Position numbers and translations under genes: made by a program. A stretch of 36,672 nucleotides of DNA, taken from assembly GCF_023684405.1 (NCBI RefSeq), contig NZ_JAGSOI010000022.1, positions 1-36,672 of the forward strand, given 5' to 3'. The stretch is from Methanococcoides seepicolus. Lineage in GTDB: Archaea; Halobacteriota; Methanosarcinia; Methanosarcinales; Methanosarcinaceae. Under the pieces are notes generated by a model. The model saw nothing but the letters and a program-made list of their open reading frames with translations, had not been told where the DNA came from and did no database searches. This document shows, piece by piece, positions 814-20,949 of this stretch; positions within the stretch are counted from its first letter, which is position 1; each line of letters begins with the position of its first letter.

Positions 814-1944
814 TTACAGGACTCCTCTATTTGGATCGAAAATGGAAAGCAAGAGTTCAGATTGACTGGATATTTCATTGTCTTTATCTTCAGTATTAAC
901 GAATTTATACAAGTACGGTATCTTGTTCGATCTTTTTATTTTGATCTTATTTTTCAATATTTCATTCATTTCCTCATTGATTGGCCAGAAACTCACTGCA
1001 GCAACATCATGTTTTTTTGCTAGATTTTTTGCAAAAGGGATAACTGATCGAATTATTCCCTCATCATATTTTGGGATATATATATCTTTTAATTGCATGA
1101 CTTTGACATCATGCTTGTATGTTATGTCAAATACAAAGTATCCAACGAGTTCGTTGTTCTGTGAGTCTATACATTTAATAACATGCCTTCTGCCAGCAAA
1201 AGCCTTTGAGAAAAATAACCATCGTAATGTTTCTACATCTCTGTATAATGTTGTTGAGTTCTCTTTCCGATTATTATACCATAGCTCTGCAAATGATTCA
1301 TTACAGTCACTACACAACGAGCAAATGAAGTTATTGCACTTTTTCGGTTTTGCTCTTTTATCTTCTATCAATTTAATAAAAGGTGAGATCAATTTTGTAG
1401 GGACTAATAGAACTTTCAGTATGGACAACTTTGGTTGGGATCTAACACTTTTTTTAATAAAAAAATCAAGCATTTTTCCATAATCGCGTACATACAAGTA
1501 TTCAATGCCATCGAAAGGGATTTCAAAGTCTTCAAAACCAAATTTTTTAAAAATTCCATATGATGCTTCATTTGGACTATTATTGAGTAGTAGTTTAACA
1601 TTTTTTTGCTTGGCGAACGCATGCAGTAACTGGATACCTGTAATTCCACGCATTGAAGGTTTTACATAGAATGGCATGCCTGCTAAAGCTATATCCTCTG
1701 ATCCGTTGATCTGATATTTCACAGGAATATTTCCAAAGAATCCAACGATCTCACCATTTTTTTCGACAACCCAACCATATGGAATGCCTGGATCCATGCT
1801 CGGATTCTCTACCCACCATGTATATATACGATTTTTCCAAACATCAAGTGAGTCTGATTGGAAACCTTCTGCCAGGAACTCAGCAATATTTGCAAAATCT
1901 TTTTCTTCCACGTATCTTAACTTGGCCGATGACATGATCTTCAT
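814..1944 (-). CDS. GNAT-family N-acetyltransferase-like protein (surface-glycan type)
   Basis: A 376-residue cytosolic protein without signal peptide. The first ~150 residues look like a GNAT fold: an early stretch LRYVEEKDFANIAEFL, then GEIVGFFGNIPVKY as central strands, the GMPFYVKPSMRG region where the acetyl-CoA loop is expected, and a KKFGFED motif typical of GNAT C-termini. The second half (residues ~200-350) looks like another acyltransferase-like half, so the protein may be a double-GNAT. Family members sit in polysaccharide clusters and probably acylate amino sugars, but the substrate is unknown. No clear ribosome binding site precedes the ATG at 1944; a Met three residues in is an alternative. 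It is transcribed away from the glycan genes, next to the archaeosortase on the same strand. Confidence 0.6.
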   Translation of the reverse strand: MKIMSSAKLRYVEEKDFANIAEFLAEGFQSDSLDVWKNRIYTWWVENPSMDPGIPYGWVVEKNGEIVGFFGNIPVKYQINGSEDIALAGMPFYVKPSMRGITGIQLLHAFAKQKNVKLLLNNSPNEASYGIFKKFGFEDFEIPFDGIEYLYVRDYGKMLDFFIKKSVRSQPKLSILKVLLVPTKLISPFIKLIEDKRAKPKKCNNFICSLCSDCNESFAELWYNNRKENSTTLYRDVETLRWLFFSKAFAGRRHVIKCIDSQNNELVGYFVFDITYKHDVKVMQLKDIYIPKYDEGIIRSVIPFAKNLAKKHDVAAVSFWPINEEMNEILKNKIKIKRSNKIPYLYKFVNTEDKDNEISSQSELLLSIFDPNRGVL

Positions 1945-2118: not shown

Positions 2119-2973
2119 TTAGAGTTTGTTCTTATTTATGTTGTTTCCTGTTTTTAGATTCATGATGTACATTATACCACCTGCAACGATGGCAAAAATG
2201 ATCCATCCTATATGTGTGTGGACCGACATCATAACCTCAGTCCCATATGAGTATGCAGCTATGTAAAGGATTATTACTCGCACAAGGTTTGCGATATAGG
2301 CAACTACAACAGCAAATCCTAGCAAATATAATGTCTTACTAAAATTCATTTTCTCTATGCGACTATAACCAGCAACAATTCCTATCAGTAGGAACATTGA
2401 ATATAATCCGGAGCATGGTCCGCCTATCACTATAGTCATATCTTCAACACCACTGAGCTTCACAGCCTCAGTTGCAACTACTTCAATGGGTATTCCTGCC
2501 AGTTTAATGACAGTTACTGTTGGTAATAGAACAAAGTAATGATCAAACAGATGGAAAAACTTGATTTCTAATGCACCAAACAATGTATAGAATATCAAGT
2601 ACAAAAAAGTAAATATGCCTGCTATGTATGCACCAAACTCTCCCATACGGCGAAGTTGGTGGTTGTTTATTCCAAAAGCTATGAGTGATATCCCTAAAAA
2701 GAATACCATAGTATCAAGTGTGCCAAGTTGGCTATTGGTCCTAAAGTTATAGAATATATCTGCAAAAGCAATGAAAGTACCTATGGAAATGTACAATTTT
2801 GAACTTTCTATTGTTCTGGTCTCTGTCAAACGTATGCGTGTGACCAGGGCTGCAGCAGCTAAGATCAAGAATATACCAACATACGTAGAGCCTTCGCTGA
2901 ACTCTATTGTGGCTCCTGTGAACAATGAAAGTATAAGGAGTATGAGAAATACATTCTTATTTTCGTTTATCAT
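2119..2973 (-). CDS. Archaeosortase/exosortase family protein
   Basis: A 284-residue multipass membrane protein with about eight hydrophobic segments. The exosortase/archaeosortase catalytic triad is visible: Cys187 in GGPCSGLYSMF, Arg232 in NLVRVIILY and His252 in VHTHIGWIIF, each at the end of a membrane segment as in the family. These membrane cysteine enzymes recognise a C-terminal tripartite signal (short motif, hydrophobic helix, basic tail), cleave it and are thought to attach the protein to a lipid. A candidate substrate in the window is the cohesin/PGF-pre-PGF protein at 20950-22146, whose tail has the hydrophobic-plus-Arg layout but not a PGF motif. The gene is divergent from the deacetylase gene and borders the glycan locus. 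I cannot assign the archaeosortase subfamily. Confidence 0.85.
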   Translation of the reverse strand: MINENKNVFLILLILSLFTGATIEFSEGSTYVGIFLILAAAALVTRIRLTETRTIESSKLYISIGTFIAFADIFYNFRTNSQLGTLDTMVFFLGISLIAFGINNHQLRRMGEFGAYIAGIFTFLYLIFYTLFGALEIKFFHLFDHYFVLLPTVTVIKLAGIPIEVVATEAVKLSGVEDMTIVIGGPCSGLYSMFLLIGIVAGYSRIEKMNFSKTLYLLGFAVVVAYIANLVRVIILYIAAYSYGTEVMMSVHTHIGWIIFAIVAGGIMYIMNLKTGNNINKNKL

Positions 2974-3045
2974 TTATATGTTTTACTTGTCAATTAATGT
3001 ATATTAAAGTACTGTTTATGCTTTGTTTAACTTTAAAGTATCTGT

Positions 3046-3058
3046 GCATATATAAATA
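3046..3058. promoter_or_regulatory. TATA-like box between divergent archaeosortase and deacetylase genes
   Basis: GCATATATAAATA lies in the 189-bp divergent gap. Read on the minus strand it is ATTTATATATGC, about 75 nt from the archaeosortase start; on the plus strand it is about 105 nt from the deacetylase start. A second plus-strand candidate, TTTATAT, is at 3101-3107. Assignment of either to a gene is inference. Confidence 0.35.
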
Positions 3059-3162
3059 CTAGAAACAGCTAATTTAAAATATGAAAGCTTGATCATTCGA
3101 TTTATATCGTCTGAACGGTTCAATTGTGAAATATAATATTTGTTCATTGGGGGTAAATAATT

Positions 3163-3954
3163 GTGAGAGATTTCACATTATCAATGTACGGACAATTCCT
3201 TGAAGCCATCACTAATACGGAGTACACCGCAACCTCCGTATGCGATTATCTCAAATACGTGCCGGATCGATGTGTAATTCTTCGCCATGACGTGGATCGT
3301 GCTGTGAAACGTTCGCTTGATATGGCACAACTTGAGCATGAATATGGCATTAGGTCTACGTATTACTTCAGACACACCGATGAAGTATTTAAGCCAGATT
3401 ACATGCATGCGATTGCAGATCTGGGGCATGAAATAGGGTTCCATTATGAAGTTCTGGATAAGGCTAAGGGGGATATGAAAAAAGCCATCAATATCTTCGA
3501 AAAGGAACTGAATGAATTGAGAGACGTGGAAGAAGTAACTACGGTTTGCATGCATGGAAATCCCTTGTCTCAGTGGTTGAATCGTGATATCTGGAAGAAA
3601 TACGATTTCAAGGAATTCGGGATCTTAGGTGAACCCTATCTTTCTATAGACTACAATAAGGTAATGTACCTGACTGACACTGGCAGGACCTGGGCAGATC
3701 TGAACATCCGCGTTAAGGATGTGCTGAATTCTGGTGGATCTGGAGCAAATTCCGGCTTTGTTGGAAAAATAGCCTCTACGAAAGATTTGATCGAACTTAT
3801 CAAAAGTGAAGAGGTCCCGCAGTTGTGCATCCTGGCACATCCTAACAGATGGTGTGACGATACTTTTGGATGGACAAAAGAGATCCTCTTGCAGAACATC
3901 AAAAATATCGGTAAGGCTGGAATTGTCTGGTACAGGAATAGGAAGTCCTTGTGA
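3163..3954 (+). CDS. Polysaccharide deacetylase-like (NodB-fold) protein
   Basis: A 263-residue cytosolic protein. The start is GTG, chosen because a GGGGG ribosome binding site sits 9 nt upstream at 3149-3153. Residues 40-46 carry the metal motif RHDVDR of carbohydrate esterase family 4. GHEIGFHYE (89-97) supplies the His pair of the second motif, and CMHGNP (~128-133) matches a later His-containing strand. Family members remove N-acetyl groups from sugars in polymers or precursors. The lack of a signal peptide suggests action on a cytoplasmic glycan intermediate. It starts the plus-strand glycan run, 25 nt before the FemAB-like gene. Bacterial exosortase loci also carry a deacetylase of this general type, which matches the archaeosortase next door. 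Confidence 0.75.
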   Translation: MRDFTLSMYGQFLEAITNTEYTATSVCDYLKYVPDRCVILRHDVDRAVKRSLDMAQLEHEYGIRSTYYFRHTDEVFKPDYMHAIADLGHEIGFHYEVLDKAKGDMKKAINIFEKELNELRDVEEVTTVCMHGNPLSQWLNRDIWKKYDFKEFGILGEPYLSIDYNKVMYLTDTGRTWADLNIRVKDVLNSGGSGANSGFVGKIASTKDLIELIKSEEVPQLCILAHPNRWCDDTFGWTKEILLQNIKNIGKAGIVWYRNRKSL

Positions 3955-3979
3955 TCCTGGTGGGGATGTGTGCTGAGAT

Positions 3980-4993
3980 ATGATCGAGATCACAGATTCA
4001 TTCGATAAGGTCCAGTGGGACAATTTCGTAAGCGATCACCCACATGGCAATATCTTCCAAACCACTGAGATGGTCGAGGTCTACAGACAGGCAAAGAACT
4101 ACGAACCTGTATCTTTGGCTGCGGTAGATACCGTGTCTGGAGATATCTTTGCGGTAGTACAGGCAGCTGTCATATGTGAAATTCGTGGAATTGGAAGTTC
4201 GTTTTCAGCACGTTCTGTAATACATGGAGGTCCTCTTGCTTTTGAAAGTAGAGAGGGTACTGAGGCAGTTTCTGTTTTGATGGGTCAATATAATGCTTTG
4301 ATGAAAAAGAAGGCAATATATACCCAGATCCGCAACATATGGGATATACAGGAATCTAAACAGATGCTGGAATCTCTGGGTTATACATATAGTGACCATC
4401 TGAACTATCTGATCGACCTTGACAGGACTGCTGATACTGTGTGGCAAAGTATTCATAAATCACGCCGAAAAGGTATCAACAGAGCAGAAAAAGCTGGTAT
4501 AGAGATTAAGAAGATCGAGAATGATGCTGAATTGGTAGATTCCTATAATTTGATTGAACAAACTTATAGGAATGTTCGAATGCCTATTGCAGATATTTCT
4601 TTATTTCGGGCTGTATATAATTTATTTGCGCCAACAGGCATGGCTGATTTCTATATGGCGATTCAGGACGGGATGCCTGTAGGTACCCGGGTAGTGCTCA
4701 AATATAATGATCTGGTGTATGACTGGTATGCAGGATCAAAAAAAGAGGTGGAGTATGTGGACGAAGCGCTTGTCTGGTGTGTTCTCAAAGAAAATGCTGG
4801 TACATATAAGACATTTGACTTTGGTGGTGCAGGTCATCCGAGCAAACCATATGGTGTAAGGGAATTCAAAAGACGTTTTGGCGGAAAGGAAGTGAATTTC
4901 GGTAGGTATGAGAAAACACATGACAAGTTCAAGAATAGAATTGCTGAAGTTGGGTATGGTATATACAAGAAATTGAAATGTGGGCAATTCTAA
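3980..4993 (+). CDS. FemAB-like / GNAT-fold (Acetyltransf_6) transferase, copy 1
   Basis: A 337-residue cytosolic protein of the FemAB-like type: two GNAT-like halves, with HPHGNIFQTTEMVEVYR near the N-terminus, IHKSRRKGINRAEKAG (~155-170) as the basic linker found in the family, and the C-terminal signature YDWYAGS...FDFGGAG...VREFKRRFGG (~245-310). Bacterial FemX/FemAB enzymes pass amino acids from aminoacyl-tRNA to peptidoglycan precursors. Archaea lack murein, so here it probably acylates or aminoacylates a surface-glycan amino sugar; that role is inference. It follows the deacetylase by 25 nt, and the DegT aminotransferase comes next. A paralog lies at 7691-8695. Confidence 0.75.
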   Translation: MIEITDSFDKVQWDNFVSDHPHGNIFQTTEMVEVYRQAKNYEPVSLAAVDTVSGDIFAVVQAAVICEIRGIGSSFSARSVIHGGPLAFESREGTEAVSVLMGQYNALMKKKAIYTQIRNIWDIQESKQMLESLGYTYSDHLNYLIDLDRTADTVWQSIHKSRRKGINRAEKAGIEIKKIENDAELVDSYNLIEQTYRNVRMPIADISLFRAVYNLFAPTGMADFYMAIQDGMPVGTRVVLKYNDLVYDWYAGSKKEVEYVDEALVWCVLKENAGTYKTFDFGGAGHPSKPYGVREFKRRFGGKEVNFGRYEKTHDKFKNRIAEVGYGIYKKLKCGQF

Positions 4994-5037
4994 CATCGAT
5001 ATGTACTTATAAAATTGACCTAAAACCAATATTAAAA

Positions 5038-6225
5038 ATGAATTCGATTAAACCCAACCCCAGATTAATTCCCAGATTTAACATTGACTATTATACTGGG
5101 GATTTCCTATCATCAATGTTACATCTAGATAAGAGATCAGATGTTGGCGAGATAGCAAATCTATTTGCAGATGTATCCATCAATTACACAAATAGCGGTC
5201 GCACTTCCCTTTATATCATTTTAAAAGCTCTGAATTTGCCTGAGAACTCAAACATTGGTGTTTCTTTATATACGTGCCCAAGTGACTTCGATGCGATAAT
5301 ACATGCTGGGCATAATCCAGTATTTATTGACATTGAGCCTGATAATTATACTCTTGATCCACAAGATCTGAATAAAAAAATAGATGATCTTGCTGCTGTT
5401 GTTGTAGTCCATGCCTTAGGTCGTCCTGCTGACCTTGAGGGGATATTGAAGGTTGCAGGGGACAAGCCGGTGATCGAGGACTGTGCTCATGCATTGTTGA
5501 GCAGGTACAAAGGGAGGCTTGTTGGAACAATTGCAACTGCTGGATTTTTTAGTTTCAGAACTGGGAAATATATTTCCGCAGGTGAAGGTGGAATGATCAC
5601 TACTAAGGATCTTCAACTTGCATCAAATATAGGGGATGAGATTGAAAAGCTACCCCTTCTTCCAATTACTGACGAGATCAAGCATGCAACAATAACGTAT
5701 GCACGCTCACTACTGTATCACAGACCTTGGTTTGGATTGTTTTCTTTGCCACTTGGTAGTAGGATCGAAGAAAAGATTGATATTATGAACAAACGCTCAT
5801 TTAGTAAAACAAAGATCAGGAACACGGATCTTCATGTTATTACAAAAAAAATAAAGGATTTTCAGGGAAAAGTGGATAAAACTAGGAATAATTCCCTTTA
5901 TTTAATAGAGCAACTAAAAGATCTTGATCTAATACTTCCAGTTGAGCGTTCGGAAACCTACTGTAATTATTTCCTTTTTCCAATACAGCTTAAAAACATT
6001 TCTGTGAGGGACAACTTGAGCGAAGCGCTCAGAAAAGCAGGATTTGATACGATCATGCTGTTTAGTGCGACACCAGAAATAGCAAAATTGAGTTATGGAT
6101 ATGAGGGGGATTGCCCTGCTACTGAAAATGTAGCAAAGAGGCTACTTGTTATGCCTAACCATTATACCTTGGGGAAAAAAGAACTTGATAATATATGTAA
6201 GATCATAAAAATTTGTATTCGATGA
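5038..6225 (+). CDS. DegT/DnrJ/EryC1/StrS-type sugar aminotransferase
   Basis: A PLP enzyme of about 395 residues, related to enzymes that aminate nucleotide-linked keto-sugars. Family landmarks: the conserved start of the fold YTNSGRTSLY, the VVVVHALGRPADLEGI strand, the PLP-aspartate region VIEDCAHAL, and the Schiff-base lysine in SFRTGKYISAGEGGM (Lys177 from this start). The frame is open back to an ATG at 4978 inside the FemAB-like gene. I prefer the ATG at 5038 because the 20 upstream residues do not look like the family and the family normally begins close to here. It would supply the amino sugar that the deacetylase and the FemAB or GNAT proteins then modify. Confidence 0.8.
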   Translation: MNSIKPNPRLIPRFNIDYYTGDFLSSMLHLDKRSDVGEIANLFADVSINYTNSGRTSLYIILKALNLPENSNIGVSLYTCPSDFDAIIHAGHNPVFIDIEPDNYTLDPQDLNKKIDDLAAVVVVHALGRPADLEGILKVAGDKPVIEDCAHALLSRYKGRLVGTIATAGFFSFRTGKYISAGEGGMITTKDLQLASNIGDEIEKLPLLPITDEIKHATITYARSLLYHRPWFGLFSLPLGSRIEEKIDIMNKRSFSKTKIRNTDLHVITKKIKDFQGKVDKTRNNSLYLIEQLKDLDLILPVERSETYCNYFLFPIQLKNISVRDNLSEALRKAGFDTIMLFSATPEIAKLSYGYEGDCPATENVAKRLLVMPNHYTLGKKELDNICKIIKICIR

Positions 6226-6300
6226 GATTTGTTTTCAATAATATGAAAAACGATTGCTCCGAGATTTCCTATTAAATAGTTTAGGATCATATTGTTAAGA

Positions 6301-6660
6301 GCATGTAATTGCCATGTTGGGGATAACGTATATATTAGAGGGAATAAACAATTATATACAATCTGCTTGATTGAGTTCATCTTGTTGTATGGTAGGGGTT
6401 ACGTATAACCAGGTGTTATCTTTGTAGCTACCTCAGGCCCATTTTTGTCAAAAATTGGACCATCTATAAAAGCTATAAAGAGCAAGATCATATATTAGGT
6501 AACCTTAAAATAGGGGGCAATTATGCTGCCAAATCTATCAATTAGAACTGGGTATGTAGTTGGTGCGGTGCTGGTTGGTGCGGGGTTAGCTGCTGCAAAA
6601 GATATTGATCATTATATTATTGTAACAGGTGTTCCTGCAAAGAAGGTGGAAGCGAATTGA
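6301..6660 (+). pseudogene. Decayed left-handed beta-helix (hexapeptide) acyltransferase
   Basis: One continuous frame shows the remains of a hexapeptide acetyltransferase: VGDNVYI near 6316, SGPFLSKIGPSI near 6433-6468, then TGYVVGAVLVGAG and the typical C-terminus IIVTGVPAKKVEAN ending at TGA 6658-6660. It is interrupted by TAA (6406-6408) and TAG (6496-6498, 6511-6513), and the 5' end cannot be found. The last 45 codons form a small open frame from ATG 6523 with an AGGGGG site at 6512-6517, so a stub peptide could still be made. Its stop overlaps the TTG start of the DUF354 gene, so its translation may now serve mainly to couple expression. Pyrrolysine at the TAGs is unlikely given the TAA and missing N-terminus. 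Confidence 0.75.
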
Positions 6661-7694
6661 ATGTATTATTGGATATTGGTCATCCTAAAGATGTAAATGT
6701 GTTCAGTAATGTGATTCGATTACTTCAGGAGAGGGGACATAAAATTAAAATCTTTGCACGGGCTAAAGAAAGCACCAGGAAAATGCTGGAAGAGAATGGT
6801 TTTGAATATAAACTCTGCAAACATTATAAGACAATGCCGGGCAAAGCTTTTGGTGTTCTTGCTAATGATCTACTTTTGTACAAAATGGCAAGACAGTTCA
6901 AACCTGATATTTTTGTAAGCCCGGGTTCTCCTTATTCAGCACATGTTAGCAGATTGATGGGGAAGCCGCATCTGGCATTTTCAGATACTGAAATAGCAGG
7001 GCTGGTCACAAAACTTGCCTTTCCATTTACAGATAGGATCTACACGTCGACGTCGTTCTATCTGGACCTTGGACCAAAACAGACACGTTTCAGAGGCTAT
7101 TATGAGTTAGCATACCTTCACCCCAAATATTTTAAACCTGATGAGAATGTGTTGACTAAATATGGTTTAAAAGCAGGATATATATTGGTTCGTCTATCTG
7201 CTCTCTCCTCACATCATGATCTACATGCAAAAGGTTTTAATTTCAAGGCGGAAAAAGAATTAAAAGAATATATCTCTGTGCTTGAAAAGTATGGAAAAGT
7301 GATTATCTCCTCTGAGCTCTCAGATTGGCAAACAATTAAGGATTATCAGCTTGAAATTGACCCCAAAGACCTGCATAATATAATCTATCATGCTTCACTG
7401 TGCATTAGTGAAGGTGCAACTATGGCTTCGGAAGCCGCTGTACTTGGAGTACCTTCGATTTATGTTTCCAATAATCAAAGGGGTTATCTTAACGAGCTTG
7501 AGCAAAAATATGGACTTGTTTATACGATTCCTGATAAGGGTCTGGCACTGAAAGAAGCGATTGAGATACTGGGGAATGGATCAAAAAAAGATGGATGGAG
7601 ATCAAAAAAAGATGAAATGTTAAGCGACACTATAGACGTTGTCGATTTTATTGTTGATACCATTGAGTTTCATGACCAAAAGGGAGTTCAATGA
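6657..7694 (+). CDS. DUF354 family protein (glycosyltransferase GT-B-like), copy 1
   Basis: A 345-residue cytosolic protein. The start is TTG, set by an AGGTGG site at 6644-6649 and overlapping the stop of the acyltransferase remnant. It opens with NVLLDIGHPKDVNVF and a Gly-rich Rossmann start, has PDIFVSPGSPYSAHVSR (~83-100), and a C-terminal donor-site-like motif SEGATMASEAAVLGVPSIY (~253-271), as in UDP-GlcNAc 2-epimerase and GT-B glycosyltransferases. DUF354 proteins are archaeal and bacterial proteins of this fold with no agreed reaction. The locus suggests a nucleotide-sugar transferase or epimerase. It overlaps the next FemAB-like gene by 4 nt (ATGA), so the two are probably co-translated. 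The paralog is at 22373-23419. Confidence 0.8.
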   Translation: MNVLLDIGHPKDVNVFSNVIRLLQERGHKIKIFARAKESTRKMLEENGFEYKLCKHYKTMPGKAFGVLANDLLLYKMARQFKPDIFVSPGSPYSAHVSRLMGKPHLAFSDTEIAGLVTKLAFPFTDRIYTSTSFYLDLGPKQTRFRGYYELAYLHPKYFKPDENVLTKYGLKAGYILVRLSALSSHHDLHAKGFNFKAEKELKEYISVLEKYGKVIISSELSDWQTIKDYQLEIDPKDLHNIIYHASLCISEGATMASEAAVLGVPSIYVSNNQRGYLNELEQKYGLVYTIPDKGLALKEAIEILGNGSKKDGWRSKKDEMLSDTIDVVDFIVDTIEFHDQKGVQ

Positions 7695-8695
7695 CAGAAT
7701 TTAGCATAATAAAACCAGAAAAGGACATGCTAAATAAGTTTGTCTCTAAAAACAAGTATGCTACTATTTTCCAAACAGGTCACATGCTTGATATCTATCA
7801 TGGTGTGCCTGATTGTGAACCACTGGCTTTGGCGGTAGTTGATGATAACGATGAAATTCTGGCATCGTTGGTAAGCATCAAATTTACAGAAATAAGTGAA
7901 ATTGGTTACCTTTCTTCCCACATAACGATTCGCGATGCTCCCCTCTGGGTAAATAGCGAATGTGGTAAAAGTGCAGCCCTTGCACTCATTAACAAGCATG
8001 ATAAAATTACTAAAAGAGGATCCCTTTATAATCGAATATATTCAAACTCTAATGCTGCCATGTCAGATTTATTATGCTCATGTGATTATAATTACGAGGA
8101 TAATTTAAATTTCTTAATTGACTTGAACCGAACTGAGGAGGAGTTATGGAGTTCATTGGGAAAAAAGAAACGTAATGGTATTAGACAAGCTCAAAAAAAT
8201 AATTTGGTGATCAAGGAAGTAGAAAATTACGATGAGTTAAAAAGTTTTTATAACCTTTTGTCAGAAACTTCAGAAACTGCCAAGATACCAGTTAAAGATT
8301 TTAAGTTATTCTATAACGTCTATAACATACTAGTACCAAAAGGATTGTCTAAGATCTATCTGGCAATTTACGATGGTTTACCAATCGCTGGAATACTTAC
8401 GCTTAATTATAATAATACCATTTATGATTGGTATGCGTGTTCATCACGTAAATACTTGCATCTGCATCCTAATGAATATTTAGTCTGGAATATACTATCA
8501 TGGGGTGCTAAGAACGGTTACTCTACTTTTGATTTTGGAGGAGCTGGCAGTCCGAAAGTAAAGTATACTGTCCGAAATTTCAAAAAACAATTTGGAGGGA
8601 CATTAGTAAACTATGGTACATATACAAAAATAAATAAACCCCTTACTTTCAAGGTGTGCAAAAAGTGTTATGAATTATATTGTAAAATATTATAA
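7691..8695 (+). CDS. FemAB-like / GNAT-fold (Acetyltransf_6) transferase, copy 2
   Basis: A 334-residue paralog of the protein at 3980-4993, sharing the same landmarks: YATIFQTGHMLDIYHG near the N-terminus, LNFLIDLNRTEEELWSSL, the basic KKKRNGIRQAQKNN linker, TIYDWYACS, and FDFGGAGSP followed by VRNFKKQFGG. Its ATG overlaps the stop of the DUF354 gene by 4 nt, which implies tight coupling. As with copy 1, the likely role is adding an acyl or aminoacyl group to a surface-glycan sugar; this is inference from the FemAB family. Two diverged copies in one locus suggest two modified positions or two acyl groups. Codon use is AT-rich, like the rest of the locus. Confidence 0.75.
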   Translation: MTEFSIIKPEKDMLNKFVSKNKYATIFQTGHMLDIYHGVPDCEPLALAVVDDNDEILASLVSIKFTEISEIGYLSSHITIRDAPLWVNSECGKSAALALINKHDKITKRGSLYNRIYSNSNAAMSDLLCSCDYNYEDNLNFLIDLNRTEEELWSSLGKKKRNGIRQAQKNNLVIKEVENYDELKSFYNLLSETSETAKIPVKDFKLFYNVYNILVPKGLSKIYLAIYDGLPIAGILTLNYNNTIYDWYACSSRKYLHLHPNEYLVWNILSWGAKNGYSTFDFGGAGSPKVKYTVRNFKKQFGGTLVNYGTYTKINKPLTFKVCKKCYELYCKIL

Positions 8696-8872
8696 TGTTC
8701 TTCTTTAATATCGTATGTGCTAGTTATTTTTTTGTAGAAGGACTTACCAACGTTTGCGAATATCTTGAAAAGCTTACCTATCATAATTTGGACATTGGGT
8801 GAACTATTGTCATTCCGGGTCCCAATTCAGTAATTTAGAACCACGATCATTAATTAGAGAATAGGTGAAATA

Positions 8873-10303
8873 TTGAGCACAGTTGATAAGGTAGCCAAAA
8901 ATACAGGGGTCCTGCTGGTGGGGAATCTGCTTTTCAGGTTGATCTCTTTAGTTGTTGTAATATATCTCGCAAAATACTTGGGGGTCGATGAGTTTGGGAA
9001 ATACAATTTTGTGTTTGCCTACATTGCATTTTTTGGCATAGTTATTGATTTTGGCCTCAGTGAAATACTTGTGCGAGAGATGTCAAGAGATACTGAAAGC
9101 ATGGCAAAGATGCTTGGAAATGCATATATTATTAAAATAATACTCTCTGTATTTTCTATTCTTCTGTCAATATCACTCATATCATTGATGGATTATCCGG
9201 TAGACACGACCACATACGTGTATCTGATATCATTCACATTGCTGTTCATCTCATTTAGCGATAACTGCCGTTCGGTGTATCAAACCACACTGAAAATGGA
9301 ATACGACATAATAGCAAAACTTATATCTAAAATAGTTTCTGCTTCTCTTATCTTCTTCATAATTGCTATGCATGGCACCTTATATCAGTTAATGCTTGTA
9401 TTCCTATTTTCAGAGGTATTGAAAGCCTTGTTAAATTATTTTTTTGTGAAAAGATTTGTTAGGGTCAAGTTCGAGATCGATCTCACATTGTGGAAACATT
9501 TGTTCAAAGAAGCTCTTCCAATAGCATTCTCCAGTGTGTTCCTCATAATATACCATCGGATAGATGTACTGATGCTTTCCATTATGATTGGTGATAATGC
9601 CGTAGGCCTGTATTCGGCTGCATATAAATTATGCGAACCATTAGGTTTGGTCCCATATGCAATTGTCATCTCATTATTTCCTGTTATGTCAAGAGCATTT
9701 ACAAGTTCAAAGGACACTTTGATAAAATACTATGAGATGGGTTTCAAGTTCCTTGTAATACTTATGCTGCCAATTACAGTGGGAACTGCTCTTATCGCTG
9801 ATCGGATCATACTCCTTATTTATGATCAATCCTTTGCGGGTTCAATAGTTGCACTCGAAATACTAATATGGTCGGTTTTCCTCGTATCTGTGAATTTATC
9901 TTTAACGAGTCTGTTAACATCAATTAATAAGCAAGGATTGAACACTTTGAGTATGGGTGTCTGTGTTGTGGCAAATATCTTACTCAATTACTTGGTAATC
10001 CCTAAGTATAGCTATTATGGAGCAAGTATCACAACGGTCGTAACAGAATTGATATTATTATTTATGAGTCTTTATTTTGTTTCCACAAATTTAGTCACTC
10101 CAGGGATATTCAGGATATTCGTTAAGCCCATGCTGGCGTGCTTGCTAATGGCTATGCCTGTTTATTATCTGAATAATTTTGTAAGTATCAACCTGTTTTT
10201 AATAGTGATCTCAGGAGCACTTACTTATGGGGTGGCTTTAGTAGTGCTACGAATATTTTCAAGTGAGGAAACCAAAACTATAAGAAGGGTTTTGAAGATA
10301 TAA
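8873..10303 (+). CDS. Polysaccharide biosynthesis flippase (Wzx/MurJ-like, MOP superfamily)
   Basis: A 476-residue integral membrane protein with about 12-14 hydrophobic segments. It starts at TTG 8873 with an AGGTGA site at 8863-8868. The N-terminus VAKNTGVLLVGNLLFRLISL, followed by YLGVDEFGKYNFVFAY and IDFGLSEILVREMSRD, is the standard opening of the polysaccharide biosynthesis (PF01943-like) flippase family. ALPIAFSSVFLIIYHRIDVLML with DNAVGLYSAAYKL is the equivalent start of the second half. Such proteins flip lipid-linked oligosaccharides across the membrane. The gene sits between the sugar-modifying enzymes and the glycosyltransferases, making it the likely export step of this locus. 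Confidence 0.9.
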   Translation: MSTVDKVAKNTGVLLVGNLLFRLISLVVVIYLAKYLGVDEFGKYNFVFAYIAFFGIVIDFGLSEILVREMSRDTESMAKMLGNAYIIKIILSVFSILLSISLISLMDYPVDTTTYVYLISFTLLFISFSDNCRSVYQTTLKMEYDIIAKLISKIVSASLIFFIIAMHGTLYQLMLVFLFSEVLKALLNYFFVKRFVRVKFEIDLTLWKHLFKEALPIAFSSVFLIIYHRIDVLMLSIMIGDNAVGLYSAAYKLCEPLGLVPYAIVISLFPVMSRAFTSSKDTLIKYYEMGFKFLVILMLPITVGTALIADRIILLIYDQSFAGSIVALEILIWSVFLVSVNLSLTSLLTSINKQGLNTLSMGVCVVANILLNYLVIPKYSYYGASITTVVTELILLFMSLYFVSTNLVTPGIFRIFVKPMLACLLMAMPVYYLNNFVSINLFLIVISGALTYGVALVVLRIFSSEETKTIRRVLKI

Positions 10304-13159: not shown

Positions 13160-14083
<924 letters not shown>

Positions 14084-14869
14084 TTGTAACTACCTCCGAA
14101 TGATCGGACGTATTCGATGATCAATCCATTACAATCTAAGTTTGATTTTCAATACTAGTATATGTGCGCTTAGTCTGTTTGAGTCGAGCAAAATGCAAAT
14201 CAAATTAAGAACAATGGCATAGTTCCAAATTTGACATTATTGAATTCGCAGGTCCAATACCTACCTCTTGAAATTATCGTGGAAAAAGGCAATATGAAAC
14301 CTTGGGGGTGTGGTCGGACTGGGGTATTTGTGGTGCTATTATGATCGGGTTTATTGTATAGCTATTCATATGGCTGGTATGATATGAATTTGAGAGTTTA
14401 AAATATGTCAAAAAATTCATCGAGATTTTCTAATCGAAAACCTCTATCAAAAAATATATTTCGAATTTGACATTTATCGTGGAAACCGCCAGGGGAAAAT
14501 CAAAACAGTAAATTTAAGCCAACTTTAGTTATATATGAGTTGATTTTTGGTCATAAATAAACAATTTAATAACAAAGAATGTATATTTATTACTGCGGTC
14601 AAGCTTCTTCTCTTAATAGATATTTCGGGTGAATGATGTTGTTTTTATGAATATGGAATATAACTCTTAATATATCTAAACATTTAAAAATAATTTTTTA
14701 ATAGAAACCTTTTTATTAAATAAATGGGGTACGCTATTCATCGATTCAATTTGAGATAATAGTCGAAAATTATATTTCAAAAGCTATTAATTTATGGATG
14801 ATACAAAAACCATTATATTGTTTACCAACATTTTTTTATGAGTTGTAAGTAGATGAAAATCGCCTGATT
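14084..14869. other. Long AT-rich gene-free region
   Basis: About 790 bp without a gene, between the mdh pseudogene and the first beta-helix gene. Bases 14084-14100 are the mdh leader. Two short sequences recur: AATTTGACATT at 14228-14238 and 14464-14474, and TATCGTGGAAA at 14275-14285 and 14475-14485. In the second copy they abut, in the first they are 36 bp apart. The remainder is AT-rich with long A/T runs. It probably contains the promoter of the beta-helix gene, but I cannot place it. Confidence 0.5.
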
Positions 14870-14899
14870 ATGGATACTTTTGTCTTTTTGGGGGTTATT

Positions 14900-16576
14900 A
14901 TGAAAAGATATAACAAACCTGTATTTTGTTCAGAAATATTATGTTTTCGATCAATACAAAATATCAATACAGTAAAATCTCTTTCAATAAATGTATTTTG
15001 TATTATTCTTATATTGTTGGCTTTATCCACTACGGCAAGTGCGAATGACTACTATGTTGCCACGTGGGGTGACGATGCTCACACAGGTCTAACGCACGAA
15101 CAATCTGTAAGGTCCCTGGATCATGCTCTATCCTTAATGGGTACAGGTGATACTTTATACATGTCTGACGGAACCTGGTATGGAGAAGTATTGGATTTTG
15201 TGGGGCATGATCTGGGGGGCACGTCTGGCAATCCTGTAACAGTAAAAGCATATGATGGAAACCCAACCCTAAGCAACGGTCCCTCGCAAGCAAATATGAT
15301 CGATACATCTTATCAAGACTGGATTACGATAAATGGGATAACTGTTACCAACGGTTATCAAGGGTATCATGCTGCATGGAATAGTCACCTTGTTATCCAA
15401 AATAGTACTTTTTCGAACATGCGTATGGATGGAATTAATTTCTGGAGGCAGGTAAGTGATACCTTAGTAGAGAATACTGTTGTTACCAATTGTGGTGAAC
15501 ATGGCATTCACTATTATAACCAGTTGGATGAAGAGATAATGTATAACCATGTTATCAGGAACAATGATATCTCTAACTCTGGCCATAATCTGATCGATCT
15601 TCATACAAGGATAAGTAATGTAATAGTTGAGAACAATGAACTCTATTTCACATATGATTATTCAGGTCTGGAACAGGTTGGACTCTATTTACATAATGGT
15701 GATACTGACAACATAACAATACGCAACAACTACTTCCATGATCAGCCAAGACCTCTGGAAATTTTTAACTCAGAAGATGTCGTTATAGAATATAACAAAT
15801 TCGAGGATATAAGTGGTAGGGCATTAATGTTGTCCTCATTTAGCGACGAATCTTATGAAAAGAATGCTCGTGTTTTCAATATATATTTTAGAAACAATGT
15901 TATAGACAATGCTGACTATGGTGTCATGTTCTGGGGTGAGGATTCGATATACCAGAATATCTACTTTATCAATAATACTTTATTGAATATAGGATATTCT
16001 GATTTCTATATCCATAGTGGTACTTTTAAAAATCCAATAATACTTGAAGATAATTTGCCACGTGAGCAAAGTAAAACATTCACGTTCCGCGTTTATCCGA
16101 GTGAGGCTATCTCTTTAATTGATTCTTCCAATGCCATTATGGTCAGTGATGATGAATCTATTACCGTATGTGACGTTGATGCTTCATCGATCAAGGTTGA
16201 ATCTATTGATGCCTATTTGACCATAAACACGTATCCGATATATGCCCATCCGACTACGGGGCATGTGAATGTAGAAGTGTACAAATATGATACATCTCTT
16301 CCACAAGGCGAGATCCTCGTGGATTTCACTGCTAAATCAACCGATGGGGGGAGTGTGGTGTTTACTGTTGATGACCTGCAACCAAATCACTGTTATGACA
16401 TCAAAATGGATGGTGTTGATCTTACTTCAAAACAGGCAGATCCTTCGGGTCAGATCCAGTTCACAAGTTCAGAGTGGTCAAGGGAACATTCTTTCTCTGT
16501 ACAAGAAACTACCTATTCCTCATATTTTTCAACGACCGCCGATGCTGGCTCAGACAGTTATATCGTTCTTGGCTAG
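14900..16576 (+). CDS. Secreted right-handed beta-helix protein, copy 1, ending at an in-frame TAG
   Basis: A 558-residue exported protein. I use ATG 14900 because a GGGGG site (14890-14894) lies 5 nt before it; an ATG at 14870 in frame lacks one. Residues ~30-48 form a signal peptide ending TTASA. DYYVATWGDDAHTGL followed by SLDHALSLMGTGDTLYMSDGTW is the usual opening of pectate-lyase-like beta-helix proteins, and repeats such as NNDISNSGHN and IRNNYFHDQPRP run to ~380. A fibronectin-like segment follows (~420-525). The frame stops at TAG 16574-16576, exactly where the next gene has the Glu of GETISFDGS, the start of a PKD domain. It is a close tandem copy of the next gene but lacks the Ig-like, CBM9 and dockerin parts. 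Truncation or TAG read-through are both possible. Confidence 0.75.
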   Translation: MKRYNKPVFCSEILCFRSIQNINTVKSLSINVFCIILILLALSTTASANDYYVATWGDDAHTGLTHEQSVRSLDHALSLMGTGDTLYMSDGTWYGEVLDFVGHDLGGTSGNPVTVKAYDGNPTLSNGPSQANMIDTSYQDWITINGITVTNGYQGYHAAWNSHLVIQNSTFSNMRMDGINFWRQVSDTLVENTVVTNCGEHGIHYYNQLDEEIMYNHVIRNNDISNSGHNLIDLHTRISNVIVENNELYFTYDYSGLEQVGLYLHNGDTDNITIRNNYFHDQPRPLEIFNSEDVVIEYNKFEDISGRALMLSSFSDESYEKNARVFNIYFRNNVIDNADYGVMFWGEDSIYQNIYFINNTLLNIGYSDFYIHSGTFKNPIILEDNLPREQSKTFTFRVYPSEAISLIDSSNAIMVSDDESITVCDVDASSIKVESIDAYLTINTYPIYAHPTTGHVNVEVYKYDTSLPQGEILVDFTAKSTDGGSVVFTVDDLQPNHCYDIKMDGVDLTSKQADPSGQIQFTSSEWSREHSFSVQETTYSSYFSTTADAGSDSYIVLG

Positions 16577-16903
16577 ACAGCATCTTTTGATGGTTCGAGT
16601 TCCTATGATGACGGCGGCATCATATCTGATATATGGAATTTTGACTCTGACAGTGGACTTCAGCAAGATACCACTGGTATGGTGTTGCAGCATAGCTATG
16701 AAGAAGCAGGAACCTGCACAATGGTTCCTACTAATATAAATACTAATCACGAGACTAACTCTTATGCGATCATTGGGGAAGAAAGTTATGTCGGCCATGT
16801 TCCGTTCATATTCTGTCTGGTTTGTGGTCAAATTTCTCCAAACAATGGTCATACTAATTATAACTATGTCCACAATTCTGTTTTATTATTTACAAATGAA
16901 TAA
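16577..16903 (+). pseudogene. In-frame continuation of beta-helix copy 1: degenerate PKD domain
   Basis: Reading through the TAG in the same frame gives TASFDGSSSYDDGGI, IWNFDSDSGLQQD and VLQHSYEEAGTCTMV, a PKD domain aligned with residues 558-607 of the next gene product. After that point the expected TVTLTVEDTDG strand is lost (PTNINTNHETN instead), and ~50 unrelated residues follow to TAA 16901-16903. The domain is thus incomplete at its last strand, and no dockerin follows. This favours a decayed tail, though pyrrolysine insertion at the TAG cannot be excluded. Confidence 0.6.
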
Positions 16904-16920
16904 TTTATTAAGGGAATTAC

Positions 16921-19900
16921 ATGATGGATCTCAAAAACGAAATTTATTCCGAGAAAACAAAACATAGCTTTTTACAAGGCACGAAGAATTCTAGATATTT
17001 TTTACGAAATATCCTTTATGCAGTTTGTATCCTATTAGCTTTGTCCGGTACAGCAAGTGCAACTGACTACTATGTTGCTACTTGGGGTGATGACGCACAC
17101 ACAGGTCTAACCCACGAACAATCTGTAAGATCCCTGGATCATGCTCTATCCTTAATGGGTGCAGGTGATACCTTATACATGTCTGACGGAACCTGGTCAG
17201 GAGAAATATTGGATTTTTGGGCACACGGTCTGCAGGGTACACCTGGCAATCCTGTTACGGTGAAAGCATACGACGGAAACCCAACTATGAGCAACGGTCC
17301 CTCAGGAGTAGCTATGATCAAGACATCTTATCAAGACTGGATTACGATAGATGGAATAACTGTTACCAACGGTTATACAGGTTATCTTGCTGAACATAAT
17401 AGCCACCTTGTTATCAGAAATTCTAAGTTTTCGAACATGGATCTTGAGGGAATTGATTTCCGGACACATACAAGTGATACCTTAGTAGAAAATAATGTTA
17501 TTACCAATTGTGTTGAACATGGGATTCATTATTTTAATCAGATGGGTACAGAGATAATGTATAATCATGTTATCAGGAACAATGATATCTCTAACTCTGG
17601 CCATAATCTGCTCGACATTCATACAAGAATAAATGATGTAATAGTTGAAGACAATGAACTCTATTTCACATCTGATTATTCAGGTCCGAAACAGGTTGGG
17701 TTATATCTTCATAATGGTGATACTGACAACATAATAATACGCAACAACTATTTCCATGATCAGCCAAGACCTCTGGAAATTTTTAATTCAGAAGATGTCG
17801 TTATAGAATATAACAAATTCGAGGATATAAATGGCAGAGCATTAATGTTGTCCTCATTTAACGACGCAAATTATGACAAGAATGCTCGTGTTTACAATAT
17901 ATATTTTAGAAATAACGTCATAGAAAATGTTGACTATGGTGTCCTGTTCTGGGGCGAGGAGTCAATATATCAGAATATCTACATTACCAATAATACTTTA
18001 TCGAATGTCAGAAATTATGATTTCTGGATATATAGTGGTACTTTTAAAAATCCAATAATAATTGGAGACAATTTGCCACGTGAGCAAAGCAAAACATTCC
18101 TGTTCCGCGTTTACCCAATTGGTGCTATTTCTGTAGTAGATTCGTCCAATGCCATTATGGTCAGTGATGACGAATCTATTACCGTATCTAACGTTGATGC
18201 TTCATCGATCAAGGTTGAATCTAGTGATAGGTATTTGACCGTAAACACGTATCCGATGTATGCCCATCCGACTACGGGACCTGTAAATGTAGAAGTGAAC
18301 AAATATGATACATCTCTTCCACAGGGCGAGACTCTCGTAGATTTCACTGCCGAATCAACCGATGGAGAGAATGTGGTGTTCACTGTTGGTGACCTGCAAC
18401 CAAACCGCTATTATAACATCAAAATGGACGGTGTTGACTTTACTTCAAAACAGGCGGATTCTTCGGGTCAGATCAAGTTTACAAGTTCAGAGTGGTCTGT
18501 ACATTCTTTCTCTGTAGAAGAGGCTTCGTCAGCGCCATCGAATCTCTCACCAACTGCCAATGCTGGTTCTGGTATGACAGTTGTTATTGGTGAAACCATA
18601 TCTTTTGATGGTTCGGGTTCAACAGACGACAAGGGCATTGTTTCCCATGCATGGGATTTCGATGCTTCTAACGGAATCCAGAAAGATGCGACAGGTACTG
18701 TTGTGCAGCATTCCTATGATGCCGCAGGTACATATACAGTAACCCTTACTGTAGAAGATACTGATGGCAAAACAGACTCTGATACTGTCACTGTAACAGT
18801 AACAACAACAGTAAGTGAGGTTAACCATGCACCCGTCATCATCGCATTCAAACCAGTAAGCGGTGCAGTCTTTGATGAAGGAGATTCCATCTCCCTCGAT
18901 GTAACAGCATCCGATGCAGATGGGGATGCATTGAGTTACACCATCCTGATCGATGGCGTCATCCGCAGCACCTCTTCTAACTATGTCTGGAACACTGACA
19001 ACACAAGTGCAGGTACTCATAGGATCGAAGCAATTGTAAGTGACGGTCTCGATCAGGTAACGTCCATTCGTACCATTACGATCAATGACGAACCTATCAT
19101 CATCGAGGCACTTGACATAGTGCAGGGGACTGCTACTGTCGACGGTGATCTGAGCGACTGGCAGGACGTGACCGGTATCACTCTAACGGCGTCGACCAGC
19201 AGAGATCCTAATGAAGACAATACCGCTGTGATAAAGGCAAAACATGATGACAATTACTTGTACCTTGTCTTTGATGTAACTGACACGAACCTTCAGGCTT
19301 CCGGTCAGGATGAGGTTAGCCATATCTATCTAGATGACAGTGTCGAGATATTTCTTGACACACAGCACGATAATGGCGGTGTGATGCAGGCAGATGACTA
19401 TCACTTTATCATTAACCTGAACGGTGCTGTAATTGATGAAGTGGGTACTGGTGGCGGCAAGGATCTCTCGTATGCCAGTAGCATAATGACAGGCATAACT
19501 TTGCTGGGTAGCAATGGTGACGAAAGTGACACGGATACTGGTTACGTGATCGAAGTCGCGATTCCCTGGAGCGATATTGGCGGGAAACCTTCGAATGATG
19601 CTGTCGGCTTGAACGTTGGAATAAACGATCGGGATAATGGGTTTGATGGACGTCAGTATTTTGACTCGTGCAGTCTGACAGGCTCAACCAATGATGTGCC
19701 TAACAACTGGGGTGATGCGATCATTGTAGCTACGGACAACATAGCACCTGTTGCACATCCACGTTGGGATGTGAATAAGGATGGTGTGGTGAATATTCTG
19801 GATATTACCCTGGTGAGTCAGAATATGGGCAGTCAAAATTTAGATGCTGTCTGGGACGTAAACCAGGATGATGAAGTAAACATCCAGGATCTTACCCTCG

Positions 19901-19932
19901 TAGCACATCACTTCGGTGAAACAGTAGAATGA
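16921..19932 (+). CDS. Secreted multidomain beta-helix / PKD / CBM9-like / dockerin protein
   Basis: A 1003-residue exported protein. The ATG at 16921 follows an AAGGGA site; ATG 16924 is an alternative. Domains in order: signal peptide to ~47 (ending TASA); right-handed beta-helix ~48-390; fibronectin-like segment ~415-532; PKD domain ~543-628; Ig/cadherin-like domain ~636-722; CBM9/DOMON-like carbohydrate-binding module ~730-938 (starts ATVDGDLSDWQDV, contains DDSVEIFLDTQHD and GYVIEVAIPWSDIG); and a type I dockerin 947-1003. The dockerin has two Ca-binding repeats, WDVNKDGVVNILDITLV and WDVNQDDEVNIQDLTLV, with Asp/Asn at loop positions 1, 3, 5, 9 and 12. The dockerin should plug into a cohesin, and two cohesin proteins are encoded just downstream. 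No catalytic residues of a lyase or hydrolase are identifiable, so it may bind rather than cleave glycans. Confidence 0.88.
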   Translation: MMDLKNEIYSEKTKHSFLQGTKNSRYFLRNILYAVCILLALSGTASATDYYVATWGDDAHTGLTHEQSVRSLDHALSLMGAGDTLYMSDGTWSGEILDFWAHGLQGTPGNPVTVKAYDGNPTMSNGPSGVAMIKTSYQDWITIDGITVTNGYTGYLAEHNSHLVIRNSKFSNMDLEGIDFRTHTSDTLVENNVITNCVEHGIHYFNQMGTEIMYNHVIRNNDISNSGHNLLDIHTRINDVIVEDNELYFTSDYSGPKQVGLYLHNGDTDNIIIRNNYFHDQPRPLEIFNSEDVVIEYNKFEDINGRALMLSSFNDANYDKNARVYNIYFRNNVIENVDYGVLFWGEESIYQNIYITNNTLSNVRNYDFWIYSGTFKNPIIIGDNLPREQSKTFLFRVYPIGAISVVDSSNAIMVSDDESITVSNVDASSIKVESSDRYLTVNTYPMYAHPTTGPVNVEVNKYDTSLPQGETLVDFTAESTDGENVVFTVGDLQPNRYYNIKMDGVDFTSKQADSSGQIKFTSSEWSVHSFSVEEASSAPSNLSPTANAGSGMTVVIGETISFDGSGSTDDKGIVSHAWDFDASNGIQKDATGTVVQHSYDAAGTYTVTLTVEDTDGKTDSDTVTVTVTTTVSEVNHAPVIIAFKPVSGAVFDEGDSISLDVTASDADGDALSYTILIDGVIRSTSSNYVWNTDNTSAGTHRIEAIVSDGLDQVTSIRTITINDEPIIIEALDIVQGTATVDGDLSDWQDVTGITLTASTSRDPNEDNTAVIKAKHDDNYLYLVFDVTDTNLQASGQDEVSHIYLDDSVEIFLDTQHDNGGVMQADDYHFIINLNGAVIDEVGTGGGKDLSYASSIMTGITLLGSNGDESDTDTGYVIEVAIPWSDIGGKPSNDAVGLNVGINDRDNGFDGRQYFDSCSLTGSTNDVPNNWGDAIIVATDNIAPVAHPRWDVNKDGVVNILDITLVSQNMGSQNLDAVWDVNQDDEVNIQDLTLVAHHFGETVE

Positions 19933-19969
19933 GATGCATATTCTGCATCTCCCTTTTCTTTCTTTTTAA
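19931..19969 (+). terminator. Hairpin plus T-rich terminator after the dockerin gene
   Basis: GAGATGCA (19931-19938) pairs perfectly with TGCATCTC (19944-19951) around a 5-nt loop. A T-rich run (19953-19967) follows. The stem begins inside the stop codon. This separates the beta-helix gene from the cohesin genes as transcription units. Confidence 0.7.
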
Positions 19970-20274
19970 TATCTGTAGATTCGACTGCTGAGATTTTTCA
20001 TAAATTTTCTTTTCATTTTAATTAAAATGTAATCATATTCATGTAATAATATATTACTTGTTTAATTACATTGGTGGCAAATATTATGTAATTTCATTTC
20101 TTAGCCTATTGAAAACCAATCGAATTCGGGGAGTGGCCTCATAATGATGGTGCGCATGACACATGCCATTTTTTCACAATGTTTATATAGCACCAACACA
20201 ATGGTAAATTGGGGATTTTTAATTTTATTGATCAGAATCAAGTCCTCAAAGTTATTTCAAATAAAGGGGAAAAC
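19970..20274 (+). promoter_or_regulatory. Upstream region and TATA-like box of the cohesin-dockerin gene
   Basis: About 300 bp, very AT-rich at first (several GTAAT/ATTAC inverted stretches near 20030-20090), with no gene. TTTATATA at 20182-20189 is a good archaeal TATA box; transcription would start near 20212, leaving a leader of ~60 nt with an AGGGGA site at 20265-20270. This rules against the in-frame TTG at 20209 as the start of the next gene. Confidence 0.5.
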
Positions 20275-20931: not shown

Positions 20932-20949
20932 TAATTGTGAGGGATTCTG

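Follow-up and report, generated by a model that had tools for sequence, protein, structure and literature searches.

An archaeosortase C locus of Methanococcoides with a conserved glycan module and a predicted oligosaccharyltransferase-fold membrane protein

The window analysed here, a stretch of 36,672 nucleotides that makes up an entire contig (G000:C74) of Methanococcoides seepicolus, encodes archaeosortase C (ArtC) divergently from a cluster of glycan genes whose last member specifies TMx, a membrane protein with a predicted oligosaccharyltransferase (OST) fold. We conclude that this locus is real, that it is conserved and forms a coherent functional unit, and that it is a variant of the theme in which a sortase accompanies a surface polymer. 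The conclusion rests on the observed gene content, the conserved gene order, the co-inheritance with ArtC, the PEF-CTERM proteins encoded in the same genomes and the predicted folds of TMx and of a polysaccharide deacetylase-like protein, from which we infer every enzymatic step as well as the identity of the TMx acceptor, which would be a PEF-CTERM protein or its anchor. We consider it probable that the locus specifies an ArtC/PEF-CTERM sorting system with its own glycan pathway, acting on or with ArtC-processed proteins.

The initial annotation of the window had suggested that sorting and surface-glycan production are linked, and had proposed a survey of ArtC neighbourhoods in relatives. Among 185 genomes of the order Methanosarcinales, the ArtC model TIGR03762 was matched over its cut-off in 62 genomes, at 69 places. 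We examined 69 ArtC neighbourhoods (68 and the window), eight of them shorter than 8 kb and all limited to 20 kb, which restricts the TMx counts inside them. In the family of the window (f1), using the 31 loci in which the 5′ flank of artC spans 9 kb or more, genes for the deacetylase-like protein and for a DUF354 glycosyltransferase-like protein were each found in 29, FemAB-like and family 2 glycosyltransferase (GT2) genes in 27 each, a hexapeptide acetyltransferase gene in 22, and DegT, PIG-L and flippase genes in 12, 11 and 10, respectively. Conservation is thus seen at both ends of the cluster and variation among the sugar-tailoring genes, a pattern resembling that of a glycan locus whose middle part is variable. 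Moreover, the divergent arrangement of ArtC, deacetylase and FemAB genes recurs in several genera of the family, which exceeds chance. The proposed linkage is thus borne out by the f1 survey (deacetylase 29/31, FemAB 27/31, DUF354 29/31) and, as detailed below, by the way in which gene presence tracks ArtC across the 185 genomes and also within genera. Taking all 69 ArtC loci together, the DUF354 family is present in 33. Paralogous deacetylase/FemAB/DUF354 sets also cluster in loci without ArtC, which rules out these genes as sortase-specific markers; it is the ArtC-type lineage of the deacetylase, together with TMx, that marks ArtC specifically.

To separate this lineage from its paralogues we assigned deacetylases of at least 310 bits to the ArtC type and those of 250-310 bits to the paralogues, a line that was set after the scores had been seen (317 above, 302 below) and that is supported by a tree including 11 paralogue sequences: the ArtC-linked deacetylases lie outside the paralogue clade, and the 11 paralogues form one clade (100/100). 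Deacetylase fragments below 140 bits were excluded, so that 82 of 84 genomes were kept and two (G048 and G175) dropped. The ArtC-type deacetylase occurs in 50 of the 185 genomes, 48 of them with ArtC (Fisher p 4e-29), and TMx in 44, including 42 with ArtC (Fisher p 9e-24), both p values ignoring shared ancestry. No association was seen for the deacetylase paralogues (ArtC present in 12 of the 38 genomes that carry them, p 0.85). The exceptions are few: one of the two TMx genomes without ArtC (G016) is a 760-contig assembly with TMx on a 3.7-kb contig, and in the other (G131) TMx shares a 20-kb stretch with the gene for a divergent archaeosortase (64 bits). Similarly, in each of the two genomes with the deacetylase and without ArtC (G131 and G063), a divergent archaeosortase that scores below the cut-off is encoded nearby. 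Within f1, the deacetylase or TMx is present in 36 of 39 ArtC genomes and, among 72 ArtC-free genomes, in G131 only; in the three ArtC genomes with neither (G076, G122 and G181), the contig that bears ArtC is 5 to 7 kb long.

The same pattern was found inside single genera, whose membership was partly assigned by consecutive genome numbering: TMx is present in 4 of 4 ArtC-positive versus 0 of 7 ArtC-negative genomes of genus g1, in 8 of 8 versus 0 of 22 of g13, and in 1 of 1 versus 0 of 7 of g9. Furthermore, seven ArtC genomes keep both ArtC and the cluster unlinked from each other, six with the cluster on another contig and one with it 48 kb away; the separation is likely real in G106 and G041, since these are assembled in few contigs, and may be explained by a contig break in G137. 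Among genomes with PEF-CTERM proteins, TMx was found in 41 of the 61 with ArtC versus 2 of the 26 without, so TMx tracks ArtC and not PEF-CTERM alone. Outside the order, in a sample of 392 genomes of the phylum with at most three candidates scored per genome, TMx was detected in nine genomes, accompanied by GT2, PIG-L, DUF354 and GT4 genes in varying sets; five of the nine have ArtC over the cut-off, always on other contigs (Fisher p ~5e-4, resting on an assumed 250-290 genomes).

Several observations weigh against a dedicated sorting and glycan system. Within the order, 20 of 62 ArtC genomes (some fragmentary) have no TMx, and outside it the same holds for 21 of 26. Linked genes are co-inherited anyway, and the counts ignore phylogeny. 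Whereas the archaeosortase of f1 is not found mostly without the deacetylase, FemAB and DUF354 genes, which would have undermined the initial annotation, that of family f5 mostly lacks them nearby, the deacetylase adjoining ArtC in only 2 of the 16 loci whose flank is sufficiently long; several f5 genomes carry the module away from ArtC. Finally, the WWDYG motif of AglB is missing from the corresponding TMx segment in a profile alignment, and peptide acceptors are therefore not assured. The dependence is one-sided, in that TMx mostly implies ArtC and ArtC does not imply TMx.

What kind of protein TMx may be is indicated by its predicted structure. The TMx of the window matches no Pfam family and no NCBIfam model; among 19 TMx relatives, none matches PF02516 at E≤1, and two weak Pfam matches are each confined to a single member. 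A search of the PDB with the TMx sequence likewise returned nothing (best E 0.46). The AlphaFold model (predicted local distance difference test, pLDDT, 78.3; predicted template modelling score, pTM, 0.75; residues 30-57 poorly predicted) aligns with yeast Stt3 (8agc_A; Z 27.4, root-mean-square deviation (rmsd) 4.0, 425 residues), AglB (3waj; Z 24.3, rmsd 3.6, 401 residues), PglB (Z 20.8, rmsd 4.5, 411-416 residues) and ArnT (Z 19.2, rmsd 4.4, 404 residues), and the matches span nearly all of TMx (Foldseek E 2.6e-8). Arabinosyltransferases are also structurally similar (ArnT and these at Z 19 and lower). Comparison of TMx with AglB by hhalign gave 78% (E 1.8e-5) and a negative control, the deacetylase versus the DUF354 profile, 17% (E 0.0014), from which we take the sequence link between TMx and AglB to be only moderate, the fold carrying the assignment. 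The likeness to STT3, AglB and PglB thus consists in the overall predicted fold over 401-425 residues, along with a small C-terminal domain resembling AfAglB-S2 (3vu0; Z 11.3, rmsd 2.2, 108 aligned), whereas TMx differs in its size (511 versus ~820 residues) and in having neither PF02516 nor WWDYG. OSTs have an acidic residue in the first outer loop; in TMx, D36 is identical in 39 of 39 aligned rows and E32 in 38 of 39, and both would be placed in an outer loop, within the poorly modelled segment. On the strength of the model, TMx appears to be an OST-fold glycosyltransferase that is not a member of the STT3 family. Because an ordinary STT3-family protein (AglB) is encoded on another contig of the same genome, TMx is an additional enzyme. 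A fragment of a second TMx, with two TGA stops, lies beside PIG-L and GT2 genes elsewhere in this genome (C84, 16507-16815) and is the remnant of a second glycan module.

The deacetylase-like protein of the window has no Pfam or NCBIfam match at 0.01, and in its family 10 of 38 members match PF01522 at E≤1 (best E 0.011) with the cut-off not reached. Its AF2 model (pLDDT 89.7) best matches WbmS (3hft; Z 12.1, rmsd 3.6, 176 aligned), with the second and third structural matches nearly tied (Z 11.7 and 11.1), and points to the fold of carbohydrate esterase family 4 (CE4/NodB). WbmS, a deacetylase-like protein of the Bordetella O-antigen, is thus the top structural match, yet shares 14% identity over the aligned residues; a literature search for WbmS returned nothing. 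CE4/NodB deacetylases carry an Asp-His-His metal site, and D43, D45, H94 and H226 are invariant in the family, the second His of motif 2 being seemingly replaced, as judged by eye. By profile comparison, the FemAB-like proteins are homologous to FemX (6snr, 1.4e-23; other FemX chains ~1e-19), and they may plausibly transfer an aminoacyl or acyl group to an amino sugar.

Turning to the sorting side, Cys, Arg and His are the catalytic residues of exosortases and archaeosortases, and the corresponding C187, R232 and H252 are invariant in all 69 ArtC sequences. Besides TIGR03762, ArtC matches EpsH-type models (8TM_EpsH, 1e-11) and none of the other archaeosortase models. Three PEF-CTERM proteins are encoded in the genome of the window; across the sample, at least one PEF-CTERM match was found in 87 of 185 genomes, in 84 of them over the cut-off, and such proteins are present in 61 of the 62 ArtC genomes. 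The f1 loci with room on the other side of artC encode an HtpX-like protease (29/33), a DUF1616 protein (28/31) and a PEF-CTERM protein (25/28), the last often a few kb downstream of artC. These genes are not visible in the window because the contig ends at position 1; in the sister genome G097, DUF1616 and HtpX genes lie on the other side of artC, ~5 kb away. Over all 69 ArtC loci, the HtpX-like M48 protease and the DUF1616 protein (~800 residues) each occur in 46 and PEF-CTERM genes in 36, and this sorting side was seen in L033, L055 and most f1 loci. Twenty-six genomes (e.g. G083, G138, G140 and G167) have PEF-CTERM proteins and no ArtC over the cut-off, and two loci (L091 of G041 and L092 of G043) contain two archaeosortase-family genes ~8 kb apart in opposite orientation.

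The ArtC/PEF-CTERM system itself (TIGR03762/TIGR03024) is already known, and the present locus agrees with it in having ArtC above the cut-off and PEF-CTERM proteins in the same genome. It differs in the glycan module with TMx and in the HtpX/DUF1616 flank, neither of which appears in the passages on ArtC examined. No description of a TMx-containing module was found in the literature searched, which excluded the 2012 paper (Haft) defining ArtC, and the passages seen of PMC5244752, PMC9723798, PMC7157517, PMC8241124 and PMC1569441 describe no ArtC glycan locus.

We hypothesize that a small lipid-linked glycan would be assembled on the inner side by the DUF354 and GT2 enzymes, and that its sugars would be given amino groups, which would be freed and (amino)acylated, by the aminotransferase, the CE4-like and the FemAB-like proteins. 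Once turned outward by the flippase, the glycan would be transferred by TMx, a compact OST-fold enzyme distinct from AglB. ArtC would cut exported PEF-CTERM proteins and join them to a membrane anchor, and the glycan module would need ArtC, its glycan being attached to the ArtC-processed protein or the anchor of that protein, or else displayed alongside them. In view of the one-sided dependence, we favour a glycan on or with the ArtC product over one that serves as obligatory nucleophile.

This dependence would also agree with a module that makes a free or lipid-held surface polysaccharide, with TMx as polymerase or ligase and the PEF-CTERM proteins as non-covalent partners in the coat, as has been proposed for bacterial PEP-CTERM proteins and exopolysaccharide (EPS), whose genes associate with exosortase loci (PMC1569441, seen in part). 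The resemblance of TMx to ArnT and the arabinosyltransferases and the missing WWDYG motif are in line with it, but no chain-length or polymerase family was matched in the cluster by Pfam or NCBIfam profiles and the top structural matches of TMx are protein glycosyltransferases, and we regard this explanation as rather unlikely.

Alternatively, the module might make the very molecule to which ArtC joins its substrates: a thioester between ArtC and the cut PEF-CTERM protein would be attacked by the amine of a glycolipid, as in glycosylphosphatidylinositol (GPI) transamidation, the amine coming from the aminotransferase, the deacetylase or aminoacylation by FemAB, and TMx helping to build or hand over the glycolipid. 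The module genes could all make or expose amines, and in some relatives a PIG-L-type deacetylase and GT4 are also present, matching the pair of activities with which GPI synthesis begins. A precedent is furnished by ArtA. In the passages seen of PMC7157517, Haloferax needs relatives of archaetidylserine synthase and decarboxylase for the lipid anchoring that depends on ArtA, lipid genes neighbouring ArtA in Methanosarcina having proved necessary for this anchoring, and the nucleophile is proposed to be an amine lipid. The genome of the window also encodes an ArtA, adjoining archaetidylserine synthase and decarboxylase genes; this one protein matches the ArtE, ArtH, ArtB and heimdallarchaeosortase models and not EpsH (ArtC being likewise represented by one protein). 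Both loci thus place a sortase next to genes that presumably supply the needs of its products, with lipid head-group genes (pssA/pssD) at ArtA versus glycan genes at ArtC; by the reasoning applied to ArtA, the neighbours of ArtC would supply a glycan containing amino sugars, and this comparison also supports the pathway that we favour above. Many ArtC genomes outside f1, however, have no module, and ArtC can therefore work without it, unless another acceptor is used, which leaves an attachment partner made by the module unlikely. Its fullest form, in which ArtC would be a transamidase joining PEF-CTERM proteins to an amine-bearing glycolipid in parallel to GPI anchoring and TMx would represent a new family with an OST fold, dedicated to the assembly or transfer of the anchor glycan, we regard as a speculative and still less likely version. 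That ArtC merely sits in a variable glycan island, the association reflecting linkage and shared descent, is improbable: such islands do gather genes of this kind and the deacetylase/FemAB/DUF354 set is also found without ArtC, but the co-occurrence persists when the cluster is unlinked, recurs within several genera and is absent for the deacetylase paralogues.

The locus had initially been described as an archaeal counterpart of the bacterial exosortase/EPS locus. EPS genes, including polysaccharide deacetylases, are reported near EpsH in bacteria (Haft 2006, PMC1569441, seen in part), and the gene sets of XrtA/EpsH loci and of the present locus are indeed alike in combining a sortase with a deacetylase, FemAB, glycosyltransferases and a flippase. 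The FemAB and deacetylase proteins of the window, however, belong to other subfamilies, and the most specific partner of ArtC is the putative OST-fold enzyme. ArtC scores 27.6 bits with exosortase A (TIGR03109, cut-off 208), the two FemAB-like proteins 56.5 and 60.1 bits with the XrtA FemAB model (TIGR03019, cut-off 260.35; 2.3e-15 for FemAB-like 1), and the deacetylase has no match to the XrtA deacetylase model TIGR03006 at 0.01, which rules out the latter proteins as members of the XrtA families. In two other ArtC neighbourhoods (G082 and G065) a FemAB lies above the XrtA cut-off (292.3 and 287.3 bits) and is directly preceded by an XrtA-like deacetylase, for which TIGR03006 is the best model although below cut-off (74.7 and 71.3 bits versus 276.2). 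FemABs over the XrtA cut-off were found at seven places, two in ArtC neighbourhoods and five elsewhere, and as an ArtC marker XrtA-type FemAB proved unspecific (1e-30 matches in 26 genomes, 15 with ArtC, p 0.007). Because XrtA-type FemABs also occur away from ArtC, we take this as kinship of parts and not as a transferred locus, and the term counterpart appears to express mostly an analogy.

The layout of the locus in the window is given in the table. All genes that had been named around the archaeosortase were found within 2119-10303, but the cluster does not end there, as the GT2 and TMx genes extend it to 12916. The acyltransferase listed among them is represented by the FemAB-like pair only, the separate hexapeptide acetyltransferase being a decayed remnant that was recognised with intact relatives from the equivalent place as tblastn queries; the gene is intact at the corresponding place in many relatives.

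Features of the ArtC locus in the window
Feature	Positions	Strand	Basis
ArtC, archaeosortase C, 284 aa	2119-2973	-	TIGR03762 360.6 bits, cut-off 100, E 7e-108
Intergenic region, 189 bp, between divergent artC and glycan genes	2974-3162		sequence
Polysaccharide deacetylase-like protein, predicted CE4/NodB fold, 263 aa	3163-3954	+	predicted structure
FemAB-like (GNAT-fold) transferase 1, 337 aa	3980-4993	+	PF02388 4e-11
DegT/DnrJ/EryC1 sugar aminotransferase, 415 aa	4978-6225	+	PF01041 2.7e-45
Hexapeptide acetyltransferase remnant, in-frame stops	6247-6657	+	tblastn best 8e-19; translation
DUF354 glycosyltransferase-like protein, 345 aa	6657-7694	+	PF04007 1.8e-15
FemAB-like transferase 2, 334 aa	7691-8695	+	PF02388 8e-20
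MOP-superfamily polysaccharide flippase, 476 aa	8873-10303	+	PF01943 6.5e-40
Family 2 glycosyltransferase (GT2), 300 aa	10512-11414	+	PF00535 5.6e-14; conserved TMx partner
TMx, membrane protein, predicted STT3/AglB-type (GT-C) fold, 511 aa	11381-12916	+	predicted structure

The plus-strand glycan run faces the minus-strand artC across 189 bp, and at its far end the TMx gene overlaps the GT2 gene by 34 bp, both genes being conserved in the clusters of relatives. The source genome is close to a Methanococcoides metagenome-assembled genome (ArtC identity 95%), and a scan of genome contigs with a single protein matched one relative. On its other side ArtC is adjoined by a GNAT-type protein (814-1944, minus strand), seen in 2 of 69 ArtC loci (G000 and G097). 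Beyond the cluster lies a gene named by eye as malate/lactate dehydrogenase-like (13160-14089, minus strand), which is broken by TGA (13670-13672) and TAA (13487-13489) and has a relative in G097 (L165) that aligns over the full length with 91% identity. It is followed on the plus strand (14870-22146) by genes for two NosD/beta-helix surface proteins, one with PKD, CBM9 and dockerin domains, a cohesin-dockerin protein and a cohesin protein with a PGF-pre-PGF domain, and then by a second DUF354 glycosyltransferase-like gene (22373-23419, plus strand) outside the cluster. A fragment at the contig end (36122-36640, minus strand) resembles, by eye, an IS66-type transposase.

For ArtA, the gene neighbourhood indicated a lipid partner before experiment confirmed the need for it (PMC7157517, in the part seen). 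What the neighbourhood of ArtC indicates is a glycan, together with a single specific enzyme so far unrecognised, TMx, which is the most testable new element of the locus. If our reading is true, the link between exosortases and EPS, so far argued from bacteria, would have an archaeal version in organisms that lack an outer membrane. The joint inheritance of ArtC with its glycan genes and TMx suggests that in methane-making archaea protein sorting and the making of a surface glycan may belong to one system.

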